This document shows positions 6,622 through 37,528 of a stretch of 37,528 nucleotides of DNA, piece after piece; position 1 is the stretch's first letter, and each line of letters begins with the position of its first letter. The stretch is from a virus: the IMG/VR virus record IMGVR_UViG_3300030085_000171, positions 1 through 37,528 of that record. One strand, given 5' to 3'. Position numbers and translations under genes: made by a program. The notes below the pieces were generated by a model. The model did no database searches. It had not been told where the DNA came from and saw only the letters and a program-made list of their open reading frames with translations.

Positions 6622-7050
6622 TCATGCAGAAAAACTAGTTAAATTAAATGTAGGATCGAGAAATGCAGGGTTCTCTACCTTCATCATGACTTGATCATCA
6701 AACATAAGAATTAGCCTGACGCTTTTGTAAAATAGCTTTGTACCTGTGTGTTTACCATAACAAATATAATCTCCTACCTCACACCAAGGACCAAAAGGAA
6801 ATTTCTCTTGATCTTTATAAGCCATATCTCCAAGAGCTAGTACACGCCCGACTGTGGTGAGATATGCCATATCGTCTTTGGTAGAGTCTGGTAGAATAAT
6901 ACCTCCTTTGGTTTTTGTTTTAATTGATACAGGTCTTACAAGAACATGAAATCCTGGAAGTTCTGGTAGTACATCTGGATCAGAATGTTCATCTTCGTCT
7001 GTAGTCCAAAGATTATTTTTTACTGCATTTCCTAGTTGTGCCTGTTGCAT
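6622..7050 (-). CDS. Phage co-chaperonin, GroES-like
   Basis: 142 aa. After a 25-residue extension the sequence follows the GroES fold: PGFHVLVRPVSIKTKTKGGI, ILPDSTKD (mobile-loop region), VGRVLALGDMAY, then WCEVGDYICYGKHTGTKLFY and LILMFDDQVMMKVE. Phage GroES analogues such as T4 gp31 replace host GroES on GroEL so that the capsid protein folds. Its place just upstream of scaffold and capsid genes fits that role. The C-terminal extension past the last strand is unusual. Confidence 0.75.
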   Translation of the reverse strand: MQQAQLGNAVKNNLWTTDEDEHSDPDVLPELPGFHVLVRPVSIKTKTKGGIILPDSTKDDMAYLTTVGRVLALGDMAYKDQEKFPFGPWCEVGDYICYGKHTGTKLFYKSVRLILMFDDQVMMKVENPAFLDPTFNLTSFSA

Positions 7051-13340: not shown

Positions 13341-13543
13341 TGCAACATTTATGCCAATGCAATAACCATGCCAATAAAAGATACCTTGCAAAAACCATGC
13401 CAGAATCGATTTGGCACAGCAATTGCATAGAATCCAGCCTTATGCAATAACTATGCCAAGATTTTATGGCATGAATTATGTATAATGCAATAAATATGCC
13501 AAGATTTTATGGCACAATTCTAGCCAATGCAAAGAATATGCCA
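13341..13543. repeat. Six direct repeats (iterons) TGCAA-N6-ATGCCA
   Basis: Six 16-bp copies start at 13341, 13358, 13387, 13443, 13486 and 13528; consensus TGCAATAAnnATGCCA. Copies 3-5 are followed by GATTT(TA)TGGCAC/T, so ATGCCA and TGGCAT/C also form inverted pairs (ATGCCA-N8-TGGCAT at copy 4). The last three are about 42-43 bp apart, four helical turns. They lie between the divergent promoters. Repeated boxes like this bind an origin initiator or a regulator; which one is not shown. No gene is seen in 13262-13696. Confidence 0.8.
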
Positions 13544-13634
13544 AGTTATATCATCCTCTTTGTCTTATTAATGGCAAAATATCCCACAAATCGGGCTTCT
13601 ATCGTTCTCCCCAAATCATCAAATTATGTTAAAA

Positions 13635-13696: not shown

Positions 13697-13727
13697 TTGA
13701 CAATCAATAATCAATTCATGCTATAAT
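13697..13727 (+). promoter_or_regulatory. Rightward sigma70 promoter of the leader RNA/early genes
   Basis: TTGACA (13697-13702), a 19-nt spacer and TATAAT (13722-13727), with TGC immediately before the -10 box (extended -10). Both hexamers are perfect, and the long spacer is compensated by the extended -10. Transcription would begin near 13733, about 520 nt before the first coding sequence. Confidence 0.7.
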
Positions 13728-13732
13728 GAGCA

Positions 13733-14240
13733 TATCGTTAATTACTGGATACCGAATGCAACCACTTAAATGAACAGCCCCTGATAACGGCTTAAAACCA
13801 TATATCACCCGTGCTGGAAAATACCGCTCCTTTCGGCAATTGCTGCACTTCCAAAAATGCCTTGGCATATTGGTGGAACCAGATTGCGAAACAGATTGCG
13901 GAACTACTCAGACGGACCCTTGAAAAGGGCAATGCGATAGCATGACGGGTATCCGATCACCCATACCTTAGAAGTGGTAGAAGACGGAGCGCCAATAGCA
14001 TGGCGCGAATTTATGTTATGAGTTTGGACGCTTAAGGTGAGAAACCTAAAAACAATCCCACGTTATAAGGTAACTTCTCAATGCTAGGCCATTGCCAAGG
14101 CGATAGGCCAACATGTTGCGAGAATGCGCTTTATTGCGTGTATTGCATGACTGATAGCAAGGTCGTGCAATGCACAAAGTTCACGCCTGGATTCTGCCTG
14201 GATTTTGTGCATTGCATGGGCAATGCGTCACTTAATCAAA
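13733..14240 (+). ncRNA. Candidate structured long leader or noncoding RNA
   Basis: This stretch has no convincing reading frame, is visibly more GC-rich than the DNA to its left, and starts at a strong promoter. Many hairpins can be drawn: a TTCCAA..ATGCC / GGCAT.TTGG.GGAA stem (13849-13878), CCCTT-GAA-AAGGG (13917-13929), GCGCCA-N6-TGGCGC (13989-14006), GGCC..GGCC (14087-14109), TGAGAA..TTCTCA (14037-14080), and a 13-bp stem at 14166-14216. A long-range GGATACC / GGTATCC pair (13747, 13948) could close the 5' part. It may be a stand-alone RNA or a regulatory leader of the 155-aa gene. It matches no RNA family I can recall. Confidence 0.5.
14166..14216 (+). promoter_or_regulatory. 13-bp hairpin with duplicated loop motif
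   Basis: TGCAATGCACAAA (14166-14178) pairs perfectly with TTTGTGCATTGCA (14204-14216). The 25-nt loop carries GCCTGGATT twice (14185-14193 and 14196-14204, the latter touching the stem). A third copy of GCCTGGATT forms the 3' arm of the terminator-like hairpin at 14801-14836. This is the last strong structure before the ribosome site of the 155-aa gene. Confidence 0.7.
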
Positions 14241-14254
14241 CAAGGAAATAAGTC

Positions 14255-14722
14255 ATGGACACGAAAACAATGCTACGCAAGATTGCTGGAATTAAAAAAT
14301 CTGGCACAACATTAATAGCCAACATTGTCGCCGTTGAACTTGCGGCAATGCGTCATGCCGAAAAGCATGGCGATTTTACTTATTTGTTGCGCCTTATTTT
14401 GGCTATGCCGAAAGGCGTGCGCGTCAAAGCACTCATTCAACACATTGTTGACCATACGCCTTATCGCTTTGACGATAAGACGAACACGCTTGTTAAACCT
14501 AAAAAGACTAACAAGCAATTTATGATTAAAGAAGCCGAGGCCGTACCGTTCTATGAATACACTAAAGAGAAGGTTTCGGCATTTGATATTGATAAGGCGA
14601 TCCAATCTGCCTTGTCTTTACAATCGCGCTATGAGAAGGCCGTCGAAAAAGGTCAAGAGATTAAGGGCGATGTCGCCAAACTTAAAGCGGTAGTACAGCA
14701 ACTTTCCGCCATCAAAGTTTAG
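14255..14722 (+). CDS. Conserved early phage protein of unknown function
   Basis: 155 aa, starting at ATG 14255 behind AAGGA. The N-terminus MDTKTMLRKIAGIKKSGTTL, the internal RLILAMPKGVRVKALIQHIV and the FRFD..T-type KTNTLVKP section resemble a small protein recurrent in early regions of proteobacterial phages (MDxKTMLRKIAxIKKxG; ALPKGxRxNAL). A C-terminal helix/coiled coil (SALSLQSRYEKAVEKGQEI) follows. It is the first gene after the structured leader. Role unknown; it may be a DNA- or RNA-binding early protein, which is inference. Confidence 0.7.
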   Translation: MDTKTMLRKIAGIKKSGTTLIANIVAVELAAMRHAEKHGDFTYLLRLILAMPKGVRVKALIQHIVDHTPYRFDDKTNTLVKPKKTNKQFMIKEAEAVPFYEYTKEKVSAFDIDKAIQSALSLQSRYEKAVEKGQEIKGDVAKLKAVVQQLSAIKV

Positions 14723-25381: not shown

Positions 25382-26251
25382 ATGAAAACAATTGATACAT
25401 TAGTCGCTGATATTTACTCTTTGTTTGAATCATCTGTACCTGATATGTCAGATGATCAAGTAGATAATATTATAGATAAATTTGGTGATGCGCTAAAGGT
25501 ACATTTAAAAAGATTTATCTATGAAGAAGAACGAAGAAGAGATACTCTTCGACTGTCTGCTATTGGTAAACCTGAAAGGCAGCAGTGGTATAGTGCTTCA
25601 CCTCATTCAAAAGTTAAAGAGAATGTAGAACTTCAAGGTAAAGATAAGATTAAATTTTTATATGGTTATATTTTAGAGGAACTACTGCTTACCTTGTCTT
25701 CTCTTGCGGGACATGAGGTTAAAGATGAGCAGAAGGAAGTATCCATTGAAGGTGTTTTAGGACATCAAGATGCTATTATAGATAATGTATTGGTTGATTG
25801 TAAGTCCTCATCAGGTAGAGGCTTTGATAAATTTAAAAACAATTACGTATCTTCTGATGATCCCTTTGGTTATATCGCACAGATATCTTCTTATGCTGAA
25901 GCTAATGGGTTGACTGAAGCTGCTTTCCTGGCTATTAATAAACAAACAGGTGAGATATGTTTATCTAAAGTTCATTCAATGGAAATGATTAATGCATCTG
26001 ATAGAGTTAAGTATATTAAAGACATGGTTAATCAAAGTAATCCACCAGCTAAATGTTACTCTGATGTTCCTGATGGTAAGTCTGGCAACCGTAAGCTGGA
26101 TGTTGGTTGCATCTATTGTGATTATAAGCGTGATTGTTGGAAGGATGCTAATGATGGTCAAGGATTACGTGTGTTTGATTATGCAACAAACCCTCGATAT
26201 CTTACGCAAGTTTATAAGATGCCTAACGTAGAAGAGATTACAGACTGGTAA
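25382..26251 (+). CDS. RecB/Cas4-like PD-(D/E)XK exonuclease
   Basis: 289 aa. LRLSAIGKPERQQWYSASPH, FLYGYILEELLL, GHQDAIIDNVLVDCKSSSGR (Asp and Asp-x-Lys of the nuclease fold) and PFGYIAQISSYAEANG are the family motifs. C-terminal Cys (NPPAKCYSDV, VGCIYCDYKRDCW) may hold a 4Fe-4S cluster with Cys upstream, as in Cas4/AddB proteins. It probably resects or recycles DNA ends, like T7 gp6. No ribosome site is seen; the start abuts the terminator. Confidence 0.75.
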   Translation: MKTIDTLVADIYSLFESSVPDMSDDQVDNIIDKFGDALKVHLKRFIYEEERRRDTLRLSAIGKPERQQWYSASPHSKVKENVELQGKDKIKFLYGYILEELLLTLSSLAGHEVKDEQKEVSIEGVLGHQDAIIDNVLVDCKSSSGRGFDKFKNNYVSSDDPFGYIAQISSYAEANGLTEAAFLAINKQTGEICLSKVHSMEMINASDRVKYIKDMVNQSNPPAKCYSDVPDGKSGNRKLDVGCIYCDYKRDCWKDANDGQGLRVFDYATNPRYLTQVYKMPNVEEITDW

Positions 26252-26649
26252 TGCATTGGAAATACGCAGGTAAACCTGACATTGAAAATAAGTTTGGTTT
26301 TGTATACATTATTACAAATAAGAAAACAGGTAAAGCTTATATAGGATGTAAACAATATTGGCACTATAAGAAAGGTAAGAAGGCTAGACAATCTAATTGG
26401 AAAGTTTATATGGGTTCTTCTAAATCTTTAACAGAAGATATTAAAAAATTAGGTAAAAGAAATTTTAAGTTTGAGATGTTAGCTGAATACAAAAACAAAA
26501 GAAGCTTGAGATATTATGAATGTTATTATCAAATGAAATATAATGTTCTTGCTTCTGTTCTTGAAGGCACAGACGAACCAGCATTTTATAATAACTATGT
26601 AGGAGGAAAATGGTACAGACCAGTAGAGAGCTATGAATCAGAATTATAG
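26251..26649 (+). CDS. GIY-YIG endonuclease
   Basis: 132 aa. GFVYIITNKKTGKAYIGCKQ has the paired motif (VYII ... AYIG), KWVYMGSS-type and NFKFEMLAEYKNKRSLRYYE (catalytic Glu region) follow. This matches free-standing phage GIY-YIG nucleases of seg/homing type. No intron is visible around it. It overlaps the exonuclease stop by one base and the next gene by 17 nt. Confidence 0.7.
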   Translation: MHWKYAGKPDIENKFGFVYIITNKKTGKAYIGCKQYWHYKKGKKARQSNWKVYMGSSKSLTEDIKKLGKRNFKFEMLAEYKNKRSLRYYECYYQMKYNVLASVLEGTDEPAFYNNYVGGKWYRPVESYESEL

Positions 26650-30237: not shown

Positions 30238-30284
30238 GTAGAGAATGCTTTTGGTTCTCTACATTCTTGCTAACAAAGGAGAAC
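30238..30284 (+). promoter_or_regulatory. Possible RNA switch in the Hsp20 leader
   Basis: GTAGAGAA (30238-30245) pairs with TTCTCTAC (30255-30262). The same GTTCTCT (30254-30260) can instead pair with AGGAGAAC (30277-30284), which holds the ribosome site AAAGGAG. The two folds exclude each other: one leaves the site free, the other hides it. Such alternatives occur in thermosensing leaders of small heat-shock genes. No experiment supports it. Confidence 0.45.
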
Positions 30285-30287
30285 AAT

Positions 30288-30731
30288 ATGAACAGATCGT
30301 ATCCTAACTTTCCATCTCATGTGTGGAATAACTTTTTTGAGCAATCAGTTGGTTTTGATAAATTACTATCTAATATAGATAACTATTATCTTAACGTAGA
30401 TAAGAAACCTTCTTATCCTCCTTATAATATTATTAGAAATAGCGAGTCATCTTATCAAATTGTTATTGCCCTAGCAGGTTTTAACAGTAAAGATATTACT
30501 GTAAGTTTAAATGAAAATATTTTAACTGTAACGGGAGATATAAAATCAGATGACGATCCAGATAAATATTTAATAAAGGGCATTGCTTCTAGAAAATTTG
30601 AAAAACTATTTTCACTAAATGAATATGCTATTGTAGATAGTGTATCATTTAAAAATGGTGTGCTAGATATTAAAATTAATATTGTGTTACCTGAAGAGAA
30701 ACAACCTCAGACCTTTAACATAGAGGAGTAA
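30288..30731 (+). CDS. Small heat-shock protein Hsp20 (IbpA-like)
   Basis: 147 aa from ATG 30288 (AAAGGAGAACAAT upstream). N-terminal part FPSHVWNNFFEQSVGFDKLL, alpha-crystallin domain from about 45: PPYNIIRNSESSYQIVIALA, GFNSKDITVSLNENILTVTG, YLIKGIASRKFEKLFSLNEY and NGVLDIKINIVLPEEKQPQ. The KGIASRxFxxxFxL motif is typical for IbpA-like proteins. It holds unfolding proteins for refolding, and aquatic phages often carry one. The C-terminal I-x-I/V motif is not obvious. Confidence 0.88.
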   Translation: MNRSYPNFPSHVWNNFFEQSVGFDKLLSNIDNYYLNVDKKPSYPPYNIIRNSESSYQIVIALAGFNSKDITVSLNENILTVTGDIKSDDDPDKYLIKGIASRKFEKLFSLNEYAIVDSVSFKNGVLDIKINIVLPEEKQPQTFNIEE

Positions 30732-31528: not shown

Positions 31529-33949
31529 ATGACCAACATTAATTTTGTAACATCTTTCAATGAAAGTCTATTTGTTGATACTTCATATAAGTTTCTAGAA
31601 TCTGTCATTGATAAGTGGGAACCTAAGATTAATCTTACATGCTACACTCATGATCTTGATCTTAGTAATTATGTAACTCCTAATGTAAAAAATATTACAT
31701 TTAAATCTTTACATGATGTAGATACATATGATACGTTTCAAAAAACATTTGCTAAACATAATGGCACTGAAGGTCAGACAGTAGATTATAACTGGAAGAT
31801 TGATGCGTTGCGTTGGTCACATAAAGTATTTGCATTGACTCAATCTGCATTCAATCTAGTAGCTAATCATAAATCTCCTGGTTGGCTTATCTGGATTGAT
31901 GCAGATTCTTATACTCTAAAGCGCATGACAACTAAAGATGTATTAGCTCTTCTTCCTGAAGGTGCTGACGTAGTTTGTCTTGAACGGTCTGATCAAGAGT
32001 ATCATGAAGGTGCGTTCATTGCATTTAATTTAAATAGTCAGGCTACTCAAGACTTGTTAGGAGATTTACGTGGTGCTTATATCTCAGGAGAGATATTTAA
32101 TTATCGAGAGTGGCACGATACTTTTATATTTACTCGTCTTCTTACTTTGTATAAAGCACATGGCTTAAAGGTTCTTAATTTAGGAATGAATGCAGATACA
32201 AAAAATTCTACTGCATTTGAACAGTCTCCTCTTGCACCTATGTTCCTTCACTTTAATGGAGCAAGTGCAGCATCATTAAAAAATATTCGTGATGAAAATG
32301 GCGAACGATTTATTTCTTTGTCAGATGATACATCACATGACATTCTACCCAGTCGTTATACATTGTTGTCTGATGTAATGAAACATTATAAACCAGAGAA
32401 AACTATACTAGAAACAGGAACCTGGAATGGTGGCCGTGCTATTCAAATGGCTATGACTATGTTTGAACATACAGATACTGTTCATTATATTGGTTATGAT
32501 TTGTTTGAAGATGCGACTCCTGAAACAGATGAAGAAGAGTTTAATGTTAAAGCTCATAATAAAATGAGCGCAGTTGAAAAAAGATTTACAGACTTTGCTA
32601 ACATTATGCTAAAGCGTAAGTCTAAATATTTTACCTTTGAATTAATTAAAGGTAATACACGGCAGACTATGACAAAACAAGATGCTGACTTTGTGTTGTT
32701 AGGTAGTGGTAACAGTATACAAACTGTACAGAATGAATACGAACATGTTAAACATAACAAGATAATTGTACTAGATAATTATTATATGCAAGATAGTTCA
32801 GAGCGAAATGTTATTGATAAGTACAAAGGTGTGAATGAAGTCTTTGAAAATATTAAAGAGTCTAAAGTAAAAGAAGATCAAGAGACAGATGATGGTTGGA
32901 CATCCTTTGATAAAGAAGATACAGGTATTAGAAAACTTATTCTACCTTCATCAGATGATGTAAGGGGTGGAGGTATTGCTCACATTTGTTTAGTTTTAAA
33001 TGATCCTAGTTTACCTGAAGTACCTAAAAAATTTAGGCAAGTACCTATCATAGTTAATCCTAGAGATTGTGTCTCTAAAGATTATATTCGTGATAATATT
33101 AAAGCTAATCTTAAAATGATTGAACCTAATAGATTTATGCATCGTATTAGCCCACACAATCAAACAGCTTTAATTGTTTCTGGTGGTCCTTATTTAAATA
33201 TTAAAGAGCTTAAAGATACAATTAAATCTATTCCAGGATGTAAAGTAGTATGTGTTAAACACAGTTATAATAAACTAATTACAAATGGTATTAAACCGTG
33301 GGCTTGTGTTGTGCTTGATCCTCGTCCTATTACAGGCGTAAGCACTCATGGTATTGTACGAAAAGAATTATTCAAAGAGGTTGATCCTGATACAAAATTT
33401 TTTGTAGCATCTATGACAGACCCATCTGTAACAGAATATCTAATGTCTAAAGGTGCTGATATCTATGGATGGCACGCCTTTACAGAATCTCTACGTGATG
33501 AAGATGAACGAGGTGTACAGATTGTTAATAATCAAGTTCATCTCGTAAGTGAATTAGGTATACCTCAAGGGTCTACATTAATTACAGGTGGTACTTGTGC
33601 AGCAATGAGGTCTATTGGTATCATGAATACAATGGGCTTTAGGGAGATGCATCTATTTGGCTTTGATTGTTCTATGGAAGAGCCTACTGAAGAACAGATG
33701 AAAGAGACTACAGGTGCTGAAGATGAAGAACCTAAACCTAAGTATATGAAAGTTACAGTAAATGATATAGATTTCTGGACTACAGGCGAACTTCTAGCTA
33801 TGGCGCAGGATTGTGAGCGTAGTTTTAGAGATGAGAACTCTTCAATTAATTTTACTTTTCACGGTGAAGGAACAATGGTAGCAGAACTATGGAAGATTAT
33901 TGATTCAGAACGACCTACTCCTAAATTTGAGGAGGTGTTCGATGACTAA
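31529..33949 (+). CDS. Three-domain glycosyltransferase/methyltransferase/MptE-like fusion
   Basis: 806 aa. Residues about 1-260: GT-A-like domain with LRWSHKVFALTQSA, WLIWIDADSYTLKRM (DAD near 122) and a late LHFNGAS. Residues about 285-425: class I SAM methyltransferase-like, with TILETGTWNGGRAIQMAMTM near 294 and VHYIGYDLFED, then a degenerate VLLGSGNSIQ. Residues about 540-740: LIVSGGPYLNIKELKDTI, KHSYNKLITNGIKPWACVVL DP and STLITGGTCAAMRSIG, the DUF115/MptE-like pattern seen in sialic-type flagellar glycosylation proteins. All three domains in a single protein suggests glycan assembly. Confidence 0.6.
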   Translation: MTNINFVTSFNESLFVDTSYKFLESVIDKWEPKINLTCYTHDLDLSNYVTPNVKNITFKSLHDVDTYDTFQKTFAKHNGTEGQTVDYNWKIDALRWSHKVFALTQSAFNLVANHKSPGWLIWIDADSYTLKRMTTKDVLALLPEGADVVCLERSDQEYHEGAFIAFNLNSQATQDLLGDLRGAYISGEIFNYREWHDTFIFTRLLTLYKAHGLKVLNLGMNADTKNSTAFEQSPLAPMFLHFNGASAASLKNIRDENGERFISLSDDTSHDILPSRYTLLSDVMKHYKPEKTILETGTWNGGRAIQMAMTMFEHTDTVHYIGYDLFEDATPETDEEEFNVKAHNKMSAVEKRFTDFANIMLKRKSKYFTFELIKGNTRQTMTKQDADFVLLGSGNSIQTVQNEYEHVKHNKIIVLDNYYMQDSSERNVIDKYKGVNEVFENIKESKVKEDQETDDGWTSFDKEDTGIRKLILPSSDDVRGGGIAHICLVLNDPSLPEVPKKFRQVPIIVNPRDCVSKDYIRDNIKANLKMIEPNRFMHRISPHNQTALIVSGGPYLNIKELKDTIKSIPGCKVVCVKHSYNKLITNGIKPWACVVLDPRPITGVSTHGIVRKELFKEVDPDTKFFVASMTDPSVTEYLMSKGADIYGWHAFTESLRDEDERGVQIVNNQVHLVSELGIPQGSTLITGGTCAAMRSIGIMNTMGFREMHLFGFDCSMEEPTEEQMKETTGAEDEEPKPKYMKVTVNDIDFWTTGELLAMAQDCERSFRDENSSINFTFHGEGTMVAELWKIIDSERPTPKFEEVFDD

Positions 33950-35820: not shown

Positions 35821-36214
35821 TAAACAAGAAAAATTTGCACAGTCCTATGTGTTACATCGTAACGCAACGGATGCAGCAAAAGCAGCAGGGTATTCTGAGA
35901 AGTCTGCAAATAATCAAGGGTACAGATTGTTGCAGATAGATGAAGTCGTAGCCAGAATTGAGGAACTGGAAAGCGAGCTTGTTACAGATATTGATGTTGT
36001 TGATGAACTAGAATCTCAGTATACCTTTGCTGCTACTCATGGTCATACAAACAGTGCTATCAAAGCACTTGAATTATTATCAAGAGTACGAGGTGCTAAG
36101 TCTGATAGGACAGCACACTTATCTACAGAAACAATTGAACAAGAAATTATTAATTACATGCAAGCTCTTGGTAAAGATAAGATAGATGAGTTAATTAAGA
36201 AATGTAAATTTTAA
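35807..36214 (+). CDS. terS: Terminase small subunit
   Basis: 135 aa. NSKQEKFAQSYVLHRNATDA, AKAAGYSEKSANNQGYRLLQ is the helix-turn-helix typical of Terminase_2/small terminases, followed by a helical oligomerisation core (RIEELESELVTDIDVVDELE) and a C-terminal LSTETIEQEIINYMQALG. It recognises the packaging site and recruits TerL, which is encoded on the other strand more than 22 kb to the left. Ends convergent with the Hint gene (4-nt overlap of stops). Confidence 0.75.
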   Translation: MSLNSKQEKFAQSYVLHRNATDAAKAAGYSEKSANNQGYRLLQIDEVVARIEELESELVTDIDVVDELESQYTFAATHGHTNSAIKALELLSRVRGAKSDRTAHLSTETIEQEIINYMQALGKDKIDELIKKCKF

Positions 36215-37528
36215 GCTGCAAGTTTACTAAACTTTTTATTATATTCATCTTGCATACTTCCTTCGTAAGAATTTTTATTGCCAGACAAATAATCTTTACC
36301 CCACTGCTCTCCTCTTACAGCGCGTCCACGTATTGTTCTCATACCATCTGCAATGTAAGTATAGTTATCTTTAGTTTCAAAGTTGTAGATAACTTGTTTC
36401 TTTAGTTGTCCTTCAGCAGGTTCAACTCTCGTAATTTCTACTAAGTTATTATCGGGTCCGAGAACTGTATCGCCTACATTTAACCACTGTACGATAGCTG
36501 CTGTTCCATCACCTTTAATCATCCATTCAGTTCCAGACACCATTGAATTATTTAGATGCCAAATTTCAGGATGCACATCTACAAGAAGAGACACAATAGG
36601 TTTAGCTTCAAGCGGTGTATTCCAACGTCTTGTTTTCTTAGTTTCAGGATAAGACATAACCATATCACCTATTTGTAAATCTTCAATATTACGATATGTA
36701 TTGTCGGCCATAAGTATTTGAGTTCCTGCTACCCAACAAGCAGAACCAGGATCATCTCCAACATCACCTCCTGCCTGATCTCCACCAGATGTTGGTTCTC
36801 CAGTAGGCATTCCCGCAGCAATTAGTGATTCCGTTATATTTGGTATATCTCCAAAATCAGTAAAATCATCTGTAAATGCAGTTTGATCTTGGTCTTCAAA
36901 ACCTGCATCAGTTAACCCTGTCCAGAATCCATACTTTGGTCCTTCACTAAATTGTATACCTAGTCCTCCCATAGCAGCATCTACAGCACCGCCAGCAGGT
37001 GAACCTGCACCACCTGGACCAGCATCTGATCCACCATCATAATCAGGGTCTGAAAATAAACTTATTAAACCTTGTATTGCAGATACAATTAACGGCCCTA
37101 TTGGTCCAAGCGCAATAGCTGCTAGACCTTTTGCACCAGCGAATACAACATCTCTTCCTTCTATCTGTTCTGGGCCTTCAAATAAAGCTTTTGATGCTAA
37201 ATCTACAAGCGGAGCAGCGATAAAAGCATTCTTACCTAATAATGCAGTAAGTCCTTGGTCTACTGCAAATTCAGTACCCTTTTGTGCAACATCAAACTCT
37301 TGACCCAAGAATTGACCTCTTCCTAAAAGACCTTCGTCTGGATCAAAAGAAAAAGGATTATCTATAATATCTGCTATTGTATCTTCAAATTCTGATATTT
37401 TATCTCCAATTGTTTCTGAAATATCTTCTAAACCTGGAATATTTATATCTATTTCTTGCGTGGTAGTAGTAGATAGTGGTCCTTCTTCCTCATCAAACCC
37501 TGGTTGCCTATCACTAGCAAGAGGAATA
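36211..37528 (-). CDS. Hint-domain virion protein, 5' end missing
   Basis: The frame runs open from the right edge (about 73 codons before the TTG at 37308), so the gene starts outside the window. The N-terminal part is acidic and Gly/Ala-rich with IAAPLVDLASKALF and GLAAIALGPIGPLIVSAIQG hydrophobic helices. Near 36737 starts SACWVAGTQILMADNTYRNI EDLQIGDMVMSY: a Hint/intein block A/B. VGDTVLGPDNNLVEITRVEP and VIYNFETKDNYTYIADGM follow, but ADGMRTIRGRA lacks the terminal His-Asn. So autocleavage, not splicing, is likely. Probably a structural or tail protein. Confidence 0.6.
   Translation of the reverse strand, partial: IPLASDRQPGFDEEEGPLSTTTTQEIDINIPGLEDISETIGDKISEFEDTIADIIDNPFSFDPDEGLLGRGQFLGQEFDVAQKGTEFAVDQGLTALLGKNAFIAAPLVDLASKALFEGPEQIEGRDVVFAGAKGLAAIALGPIGPLIVSAIQGLISLFSDPDYDGGSDAGPGGAGSPAGGAVDAAMGGLGIQFSEGPKYGFWTGLTDAGFEDQDQTAFTDDFTDFGDIPNITESLIAAGMPTGEPTSGGDQAGGDVGDDPGSACWVAGTQILMADNTYRNIEDLQIGDMVMSYPETKKTRRWNTPLEAKPIVSLLVDVHPEIWHLNNSMVSGTEWMIKGDGTAAIVQWLNVGDTVLGPDNNLVEITRVEPAEGQLKKQVIYNFETKDNYTYIADGMRTIRGRAVRGEQWGKDYLSGNKNSYEGSMQDEYNKKFSKLAA

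Follow-up and report, generated by a model that had tools for sequence, protein, structure and literature searches.

Covariation supports a conserved structured RNA ahead of the first early gene of a phage and its relatives

Introduction

To our knowledge, few large structured RNAs are known from phages, and what GOLLD and ROOL do has yet to be established. About 500 nt lacking a convincing gene, which immediately precede the early genes of a phage genome, raise the question of whether a further RNA of this kind is encoded there and what it might do. The window analyzed is the whole stretch of 37,528 nucleotides that makes up nearly all of a 37,828-base IMG/VR virus record (IMGVR_UViG_3300030085_000171), and the phage behind it is uncultured and probably marine. 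An initial annotation, made from the letters alone, had proposed that positions 13733-14240 give rise to a long structured RNA that is transcribed from a consensus promoter and matches no familiar family. Here we describe homologues of this RNA, the covariation within it, and its association with the adjacent gene, and we weigh the explanations for its presence.

Results

Open reading frames and family matches divided the window into two arms. The structural arm, headed by the terminase, runs leftwards, and the early/replication arm, which encodes p155, a T7-type primase-helicase and PolA, runs rightwards from 14.2 kb. The first gene of the early arm (14255-14722, + strand) encodes p155, a basic 155-residue protein of PHROG 1448, and is preceded by a Shine-Dalgarno-like AAGGA (14242-14246, +). 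The consensus promoter of the initial annotation was found in full (13697-13727, +), with TTGACA at 13697-13702, a 19-nt spacer ending in an extended -10 TGC, and TATAAT at 13722-13727. The same layout, TTGACA/TTGACT-19-TGN-TATAAT/TATACT, was kept in the relatives L002, L008, L013 and L017 and was weaker in L010 and L019. From the position of this promoter, transcription is expected to start near 13734, and homologue alignment, covariation and the G-U strand test described below placed the non-coding RNA, or 5' leader, at 13734-14240 (+), present as a single copy in the genome.

A second sigma70 promoter, TTGACA-17-TATAAT, points towards the terminase and structural arm (13261-13233, - strand); it is a perfect match at 12 of 12 positions, which is unusual for late genes. 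Between the divergent promoters lies an AT-rich iteron array (13341-13545) with six direct copies and one inverted copy of TGCAA-N5-ATGCCA. Three to five iteron copies were present in every RNA-bearing relative read, and none in L009, L012 or L016; an origin, an operator and packaging repeats are the candidate roles. The idea that such arrays generally mark p155 phages was rejected, since repeat arrays also occur in p155-free loci. VpV262 (Zobellviridae) resembles the window in its two-arm genome, in a p155-like ORF1 that comes first after ~0.9 kb of non-coding DNA, and in a hairpin before ORF1, but differs in giving no match to the RNA models. It has a 138-bp terminal repeat at either end, immediately beyond the early gene that comes first. 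By likeness to VpV262, the genome ends may lie within the interval at 13.2-13.7 kb; if the analogy is right, the structured RNA is probably the first region transcribed.

Several genes elsewhere in the window were also observed. A free-standing GIY-YIG SegE-like endonuclease (26251-26649) lies amid the early genes, and an 806-residue protein with an MptE-like (PF01973) domain (31529-33949), odd for a podophage, is encoded behind another glycosyltransferase-like gene. The protein encoded at 36211-37308 (- strand) contains a Hint/intein-like stretch (a partial PF05203 match, below the cut-off of that family), and a GroES-like co-chaperonin (6622-7050) and an Hsp20-like small heat-shock protein (30267-30731) were recognized by eye.

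The region was GC-richer than its left flank (0.41-0.49 vs 0.26-0.36), and no sense ORF was common to the four full-length homologues, both in agreement with the initial annotation. Its RNAfold z-score relative to shuffled sequence was -3.4, which is weak evidence given coding controls of +1.7 to -4.3. Strongly folding upstream DNA was also found in the p155-less relatives L016, L044, L047 and L033, with z down to -6.5 (L044), which means that structured leaders are not necessarily linked to p155 as a rule. Because coding and p155-free controls folded as strongly, folding energy alone is not decisive, and MFE z-scores were rejected as evidence across lineages owing to this overlap. No T run follows the terminal hairpin, and thus no intrinsic terminator was found between the RNA and p155. 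Whatever else it does, the RNA is therefore the 5' leader of an early operon, and it is likely co-transcribed with p155.

Homologues were collected by a terminase search (80 related loci), by blastn within those loci and by a p155 search. Eight independent carriers were obtained: the window, L010, L002, L019, L004, L008, L013 and L017. The first four hold full-length copies that are ~70-85% identical, with 84% (L010), 78% (L002) and 74% (L019) identity to the window RNA. L004 retains the 3' half only, its 5' end being lost at a contig end, and L017 has lost its 3' end in the same way. The middle part differs in L008 and L013; L008 keeps both ends, with the middle replaced. Pseudoknot 1 and/or a shared 3' element, located behind an early promoter and before p155, define the family and were found in all eight. 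The 5' covariance model recovered L008, L013 and L017, none of which was in its training set, at E values of 4e-13 to 1e-6, and the 3' model recovered L013, also outside training, at 9e-10; neither model found anything at E≤1 in the 75 other loci with related terminases. No DNA-level match was obtained when the locus was compared by blastn with 50,697 INPHARED phage records. DNA-pattern searches of IMG/VR from conserved stretches returned only known p155-linked relatives and unrelated chance matches. No published description of the RNA was found in the open-access literature.

Compensatory changes, the check that the initial annotation had called for, were present in the 5' domain, in pseudoknot 1 and in the 3' domain. 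For the 5' domain, 53 named pairs were assessed in the four full-length sequences, which share ancestry, and 98.6% of the 212 cells were paired. Twenty-one pairs had changed on both sides, compared to a shuffled mean of 8.6, with 0 of 500 shuffles as high, and pairing fell to 35-43% when the partners were slid. In a column-shuffle test, four stacks that pair in all four sequences had at least three compensatory pairs each, while column shuffling produced a mean of 0.03 such stacks and a maximum of 1 (30 shuffles). Across the 5' domain and state Y of the 3' domain, 21 G-U cells were counted vs one A-C cell; this excess indicates that the functional strand is the + strand and that the molecule is RNA. 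Compensatory changes, tolerance of G-U on one strand and the lack of a conserved ORF were thus all found, and judged from these alignments the 13733-14240 region is almost certainly a conserved structured RNA.

The 5' domain contains an H-type pseudoknot (pseudoknot 1, 13776-13807, +), in which the loop 13782-13786 of the stem 13776-13779/13789-13792 pairs with 13803-13807. In seven sequences, 92% of its cells were paired and 12 cells were double-changed, with 0 of 500 shuffles as high; this count includes L008, L013 and L017, which were absent from the four-sequence alignment that first showed the pairings. It is followed by a long interrupted stem (13814-13911, +) made up of 13814-13817/13908-13911, 13824-13827/13898-13901, 13831-13835/13887-13891 and 13837-13840/13883-13886, in which all cells were paired and six pairs were double-changed. 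Two hairpins follow on the + strand, CCCUU/AAGGG (13917-13929) and AUGC-GAUA-GCAU (13932-13943). In pseudoknot 2 (13947-13988, +), 13947-13950/13959-13962 crosses 13952-13955/13985-13988, and the pair 13952/13988 was of four types in four sequences; the accompanying helix 13964-13967/13976-13979 was double-changed at 4 of 4 pairs. Next is a hairpin (13989-14006, +) whose AUAGCA hexaloop is invariant and whose stem differs between the sequences (GCGCCA, GCGCCG, GCGAUG, GCGCUG), and then two hairpins (14019-14047, +; 14019-14023/14030-14034 and 14035-14038/14044-14047), in place of which L008 has different paired stems.

These structures bear on the hairpins that had been drawn from the single sequence. 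Of the five, those at 13917-13929, 13989-14006 and 14166-14216 gained support from double changes, the one at 14087-14109 was weak (two compensatory pairs), and only the inner UGCC/GGCA of 13849-13878 was retained, the remainder of that stem being unsupported. The proposed long-range GGATACC/GGTATCC pair is missing from L002 and L019 and is not conserved. The twofold occurrence of CAGATTGCG is explained by each copy forming one side of a separate helix (13883-13891 and 13898-13901), and that of ATAGCATG proved to be part of a stronger signal, A(U/C)AGCA, which recurs three times. A(T/C)AGCA was found exactly three times per RNA in the four full-length homologues, spaced by 58 and 158-159 nt; in the window the copies are located in the hairpin 13932-13943, in the hexaloop of 13989-14006 and in the loop 14154-14159. 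An AUAGCA loop was also found in the hairpin preceding the terminal hairpin in the distant p155 leaders L102, L133 and L134. As a putative protein site or docking motif, this loop is the strongest candidate.

The 3' end of the RNA contains a possible two-state element (14140-14226, +) composed of strands A (14140-14152), B (14161-14173), C (14209-14218) and D (14220-14226). State X consists of A:B and C:D, and state Y is a long hairpin of ~20 pairs (14164-14183/14199-14218), which contains B:C. In six sequences, states X and Y were each ~99% paired. One position was changed jointly in B, C and D in L002, L019 and L004, probably in a single event, such that both B:C and C:D remain paired; this essentially single linked set of changes suggests a switch between X and Y. 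For 14130-14232, the RNAfold energy of X was -36.4; Y as drawn came to -27.7 to -30.3, and a Y-like minimum in which the upstream strand is folded too came to -41.5. By these energies both states are reachable.

The expectation that no known family would match was borne out, as the region gave no Rfam 15 match at the gathering cut-off; at E≤5 only spurious microRNA hairpins appeared, the best of them fitted to the 14166-14216 stem. A group I intron, considered from a CUCAGACGG-like stretch, was dropped since no Rfam match was obtained. The initial annotation had also likened the region to large phage ncRNAs, and a long structured RNA behind a strong promoter is consistent with this, but it is neither GOLLD nor ROOL: neither model matched, at E values up to 5, and no tRNA gene was found within the window. 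GOLLD is similarly a large ornate phage RNA, conserved in its 3' part and more variable in its 5' part. Many of its members exceed 800 nt, and it often lies near tRNA islands (PMC12286853), whereas the window RNA is placed at an early promoter. ROOL is phage-borne, of similar size (the solved example has 659 nt) and contains several pseudoknots, but it is often near tRNA islands and without a known protein partner (PMC12286853), in contrast to the linkage of the window RNA to p155.

In every carrier with a downstream gene on the contig, that gene is p155, and the distance from terminase to first gene is 1.1-1.35 kb. The p155-less loci read closely have a gap of ~0.5-0.8 kb and a different first protein of ~190-220 residues; unrelated proteins of this size occupy the first early position in L009, L012, L016, L027 and L044, which have a related terminase. 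Among the 75 non-carrier terminase loci, a diverged p155 is encoded in L046 and L049, which gave no match to the RNA models, and no p155 was seen in the other 73, a fair share of which are cut near the terminase and hence of little weight. PHROG 1448, labelled as of unknown function, has relatives in 344 phage records, mostly of Acinetobacter and Pseudomonas phages, and its gene stands first, or close to first, in the early region of hundreds of podophages, though it is the third or second gene in phiKMV-like and LUZ24-like phages. Each of the 14 p155 homologues assessed is basic, with a pI of 8.3-9.8, which would suit a protein that binds nucleic acids but is no proof of it. The protein is predicted to be helical (AlphaFold2 mean pLDDT 84); its fold had no match in the PDB, where no RNA-binding fold was recognized, and in BFVD it matched only its own family, including VpV262 and ICP2 proteins. 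A search of bacterial genomes found no p155.

The other PHROG 1448 records read have ~0.35-1.5 kb of gene-free DNA before the p155 gene block, often with annotated sigma70 promoters. In the Autographiviridae leaders (e.g., Friunavirus phiAB1, Acibel007), as in the window, ~350-550 nt of non-coding sequence extend from the last sigma70 early promoter to the p155 block and end in a terminal hairpin before the ribosome-binding site. Whole-stem covariation was seen in the leader of Friunavirus, a group of Acinetobacter phages; this leader occurs in 157 records, and stems were exchanged from TTATCGAG/TTCGATAG to TCCTCTAG/TTAGAGGA. The Autographiviridae leaders differ in giving no match to the window covariance models R1 and R2, and none of the records read lists them as an RNA. 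In a marine p155 group (L103, L128, L131, L133, L134), whose leaders are 44-55% identical between groups, a 5' three-way junction covaries, its third helix with six compensatory pairs. The window models found no match in L046, L102, L103, L106-L110, L128-L134 or L174-L182. A single homologous RNA family of PHROG 1448 leaders was thus set aside, as the window models miss the other leaders; on sequence grounds the latter are positional counterparts of the window RNA with undetectable homology. Tandem sigma70-like promoters, each with its own non-coding stretch, precede the p155 homologue in L106, L107, L108 and L110, which are Acinetobacter, Vibrio and Pseudomonas phages, and a GTCCACGGTGGTGCAGTGG-like segment is common to L107 and L110.

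Discussion

Our preferred reading, put forward tentatively, is that the region encodes a ~490-nt folded early RNA that is functionally paired with p155, possibly bound by it, and contains a candidate RNase III site in its terminal hairpin. Host RNA polymerase would transcribe the RNA from the consensus promoter soon after DNA entry, and transcription would continue into p155, as the RNA is followed by no intrinsic terminator. A long hairpin before the p155 ribosome-binding site (~20 pairs, state Y) would be a likely RNase III site at which the folded core is freed, and RNase III processing at the early junctions of T7 provides a model for such release; this step is conceivable, somewhat short of an even chance. 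The basic p155 would bind the RNA, with the AUAGCA hairpins as best candidate sites, and its binding could lead to an early RNA-protein particle, to feedback on p155, or to both. That p155 is the protein partner of the RNA is a real possibility that we put forward with reserve. This reading is favored over its rivals because the RNA is linked to p155, and the rivals are not sharply separated from it.

A cis-acting antiterminator would place the nascent leader on host RNA polymerase, which would then pass terminators of the early arm, as with HK022 put, where a structured leader likewise follows the early promoter of a phage. The position directly behind a strong rightward promoter fits this model, sequence conservation between hosts would not be required, and none of the large ORFs in the window was recognized as a phage RNA polymerase, so that ~22 kb would be left for the host enzyme to transcribe. 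However, the put sites are ~70 nt long with two simple stem-loops, far shorter than the ~490 nt with pseudoknots found here, and Friunavirus and phiKMV relatives keep long leaders despite encoding their own RNA polymerase; we consider antitermination unlikely. The released core could instead act in trans as a takeover RNA on host RNA polymerase, the ribosome, an RNase or an RNA chaperone, p155 being merely the next gene. Such a role agrees with the RNA being probably the first transcribed region, with a large compact pseudoknotted fold like that of other phage ncRNAs, and with a hairpin able to release the core. It leaves the linkage to p155 unaccounted for, and a conserved host target would predict a shared motif, yet only the AUAGCA loops are common across lineages, which makes this role improbable in our judgment.

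A further rival is an origin element made up of the iterons and the RNA, in which a structured transcript would prime synthesis by the phage PolA as in ColE1, whose RNA II is a ~500-nt folded transcript that primes DNA synthesis with a PolA-type polymerase involved; in the window, unlike in ColE1 RNA II, iterons lie upstream. Iterons and AT-rich DNA directly upstream in all RNA-bearing relatives read, missing from L009, L012 and L016, are consistent with an origin, as are the encoded PolA-type polymerase and T7-type primase-helicase and a minimum of cumulative GC skew near 13.9 kb. That minimum is equally explained by the change of gene direction there, the VpV262 analogy puts genome ends at this site, where the repeats may serve packaging, and nothing in the RNA suggests a primer junction, so that we regard an origin as very unlikely. 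The same low standing applies to a purely cis-regulatory leader, in which the A/B/C/D element would switch p155 translation or mRNA stability and the rest would act as sensor or stabilizer. The mutually exclusive helices near the ribosome-binding site are both supported, but the Shine-Dalgarno sequence lies outside both states, 490 nt is large for such a role, and the switch rests on one linked change.

The function of the RNA is directly testable, since p155 is a candidate partner, a promoter and a predicted start are available, and Acinetobacter and Pseudomonas phages that can be cultured have counterparts by position. In the podophage genomes read, among them those of Friunavirus and phiKMV-like phages, an RNA at this position would also account for long stretches at the early end that carry no annotation. 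More speculatively, and with the odds clearly against it, the arrangement could represent a widespread early phage ribonucleoprotein: hundreds of podophages would begin their first transcript with a folded RNA of 350-550 nt that partners the adjacent PHROG 1448 protein and redirects the host in the first minutes, the RNAs having diverged beyond sequence recognition with the arrangement kept. The RNA may be a new kind of phage tool for the start of infection.
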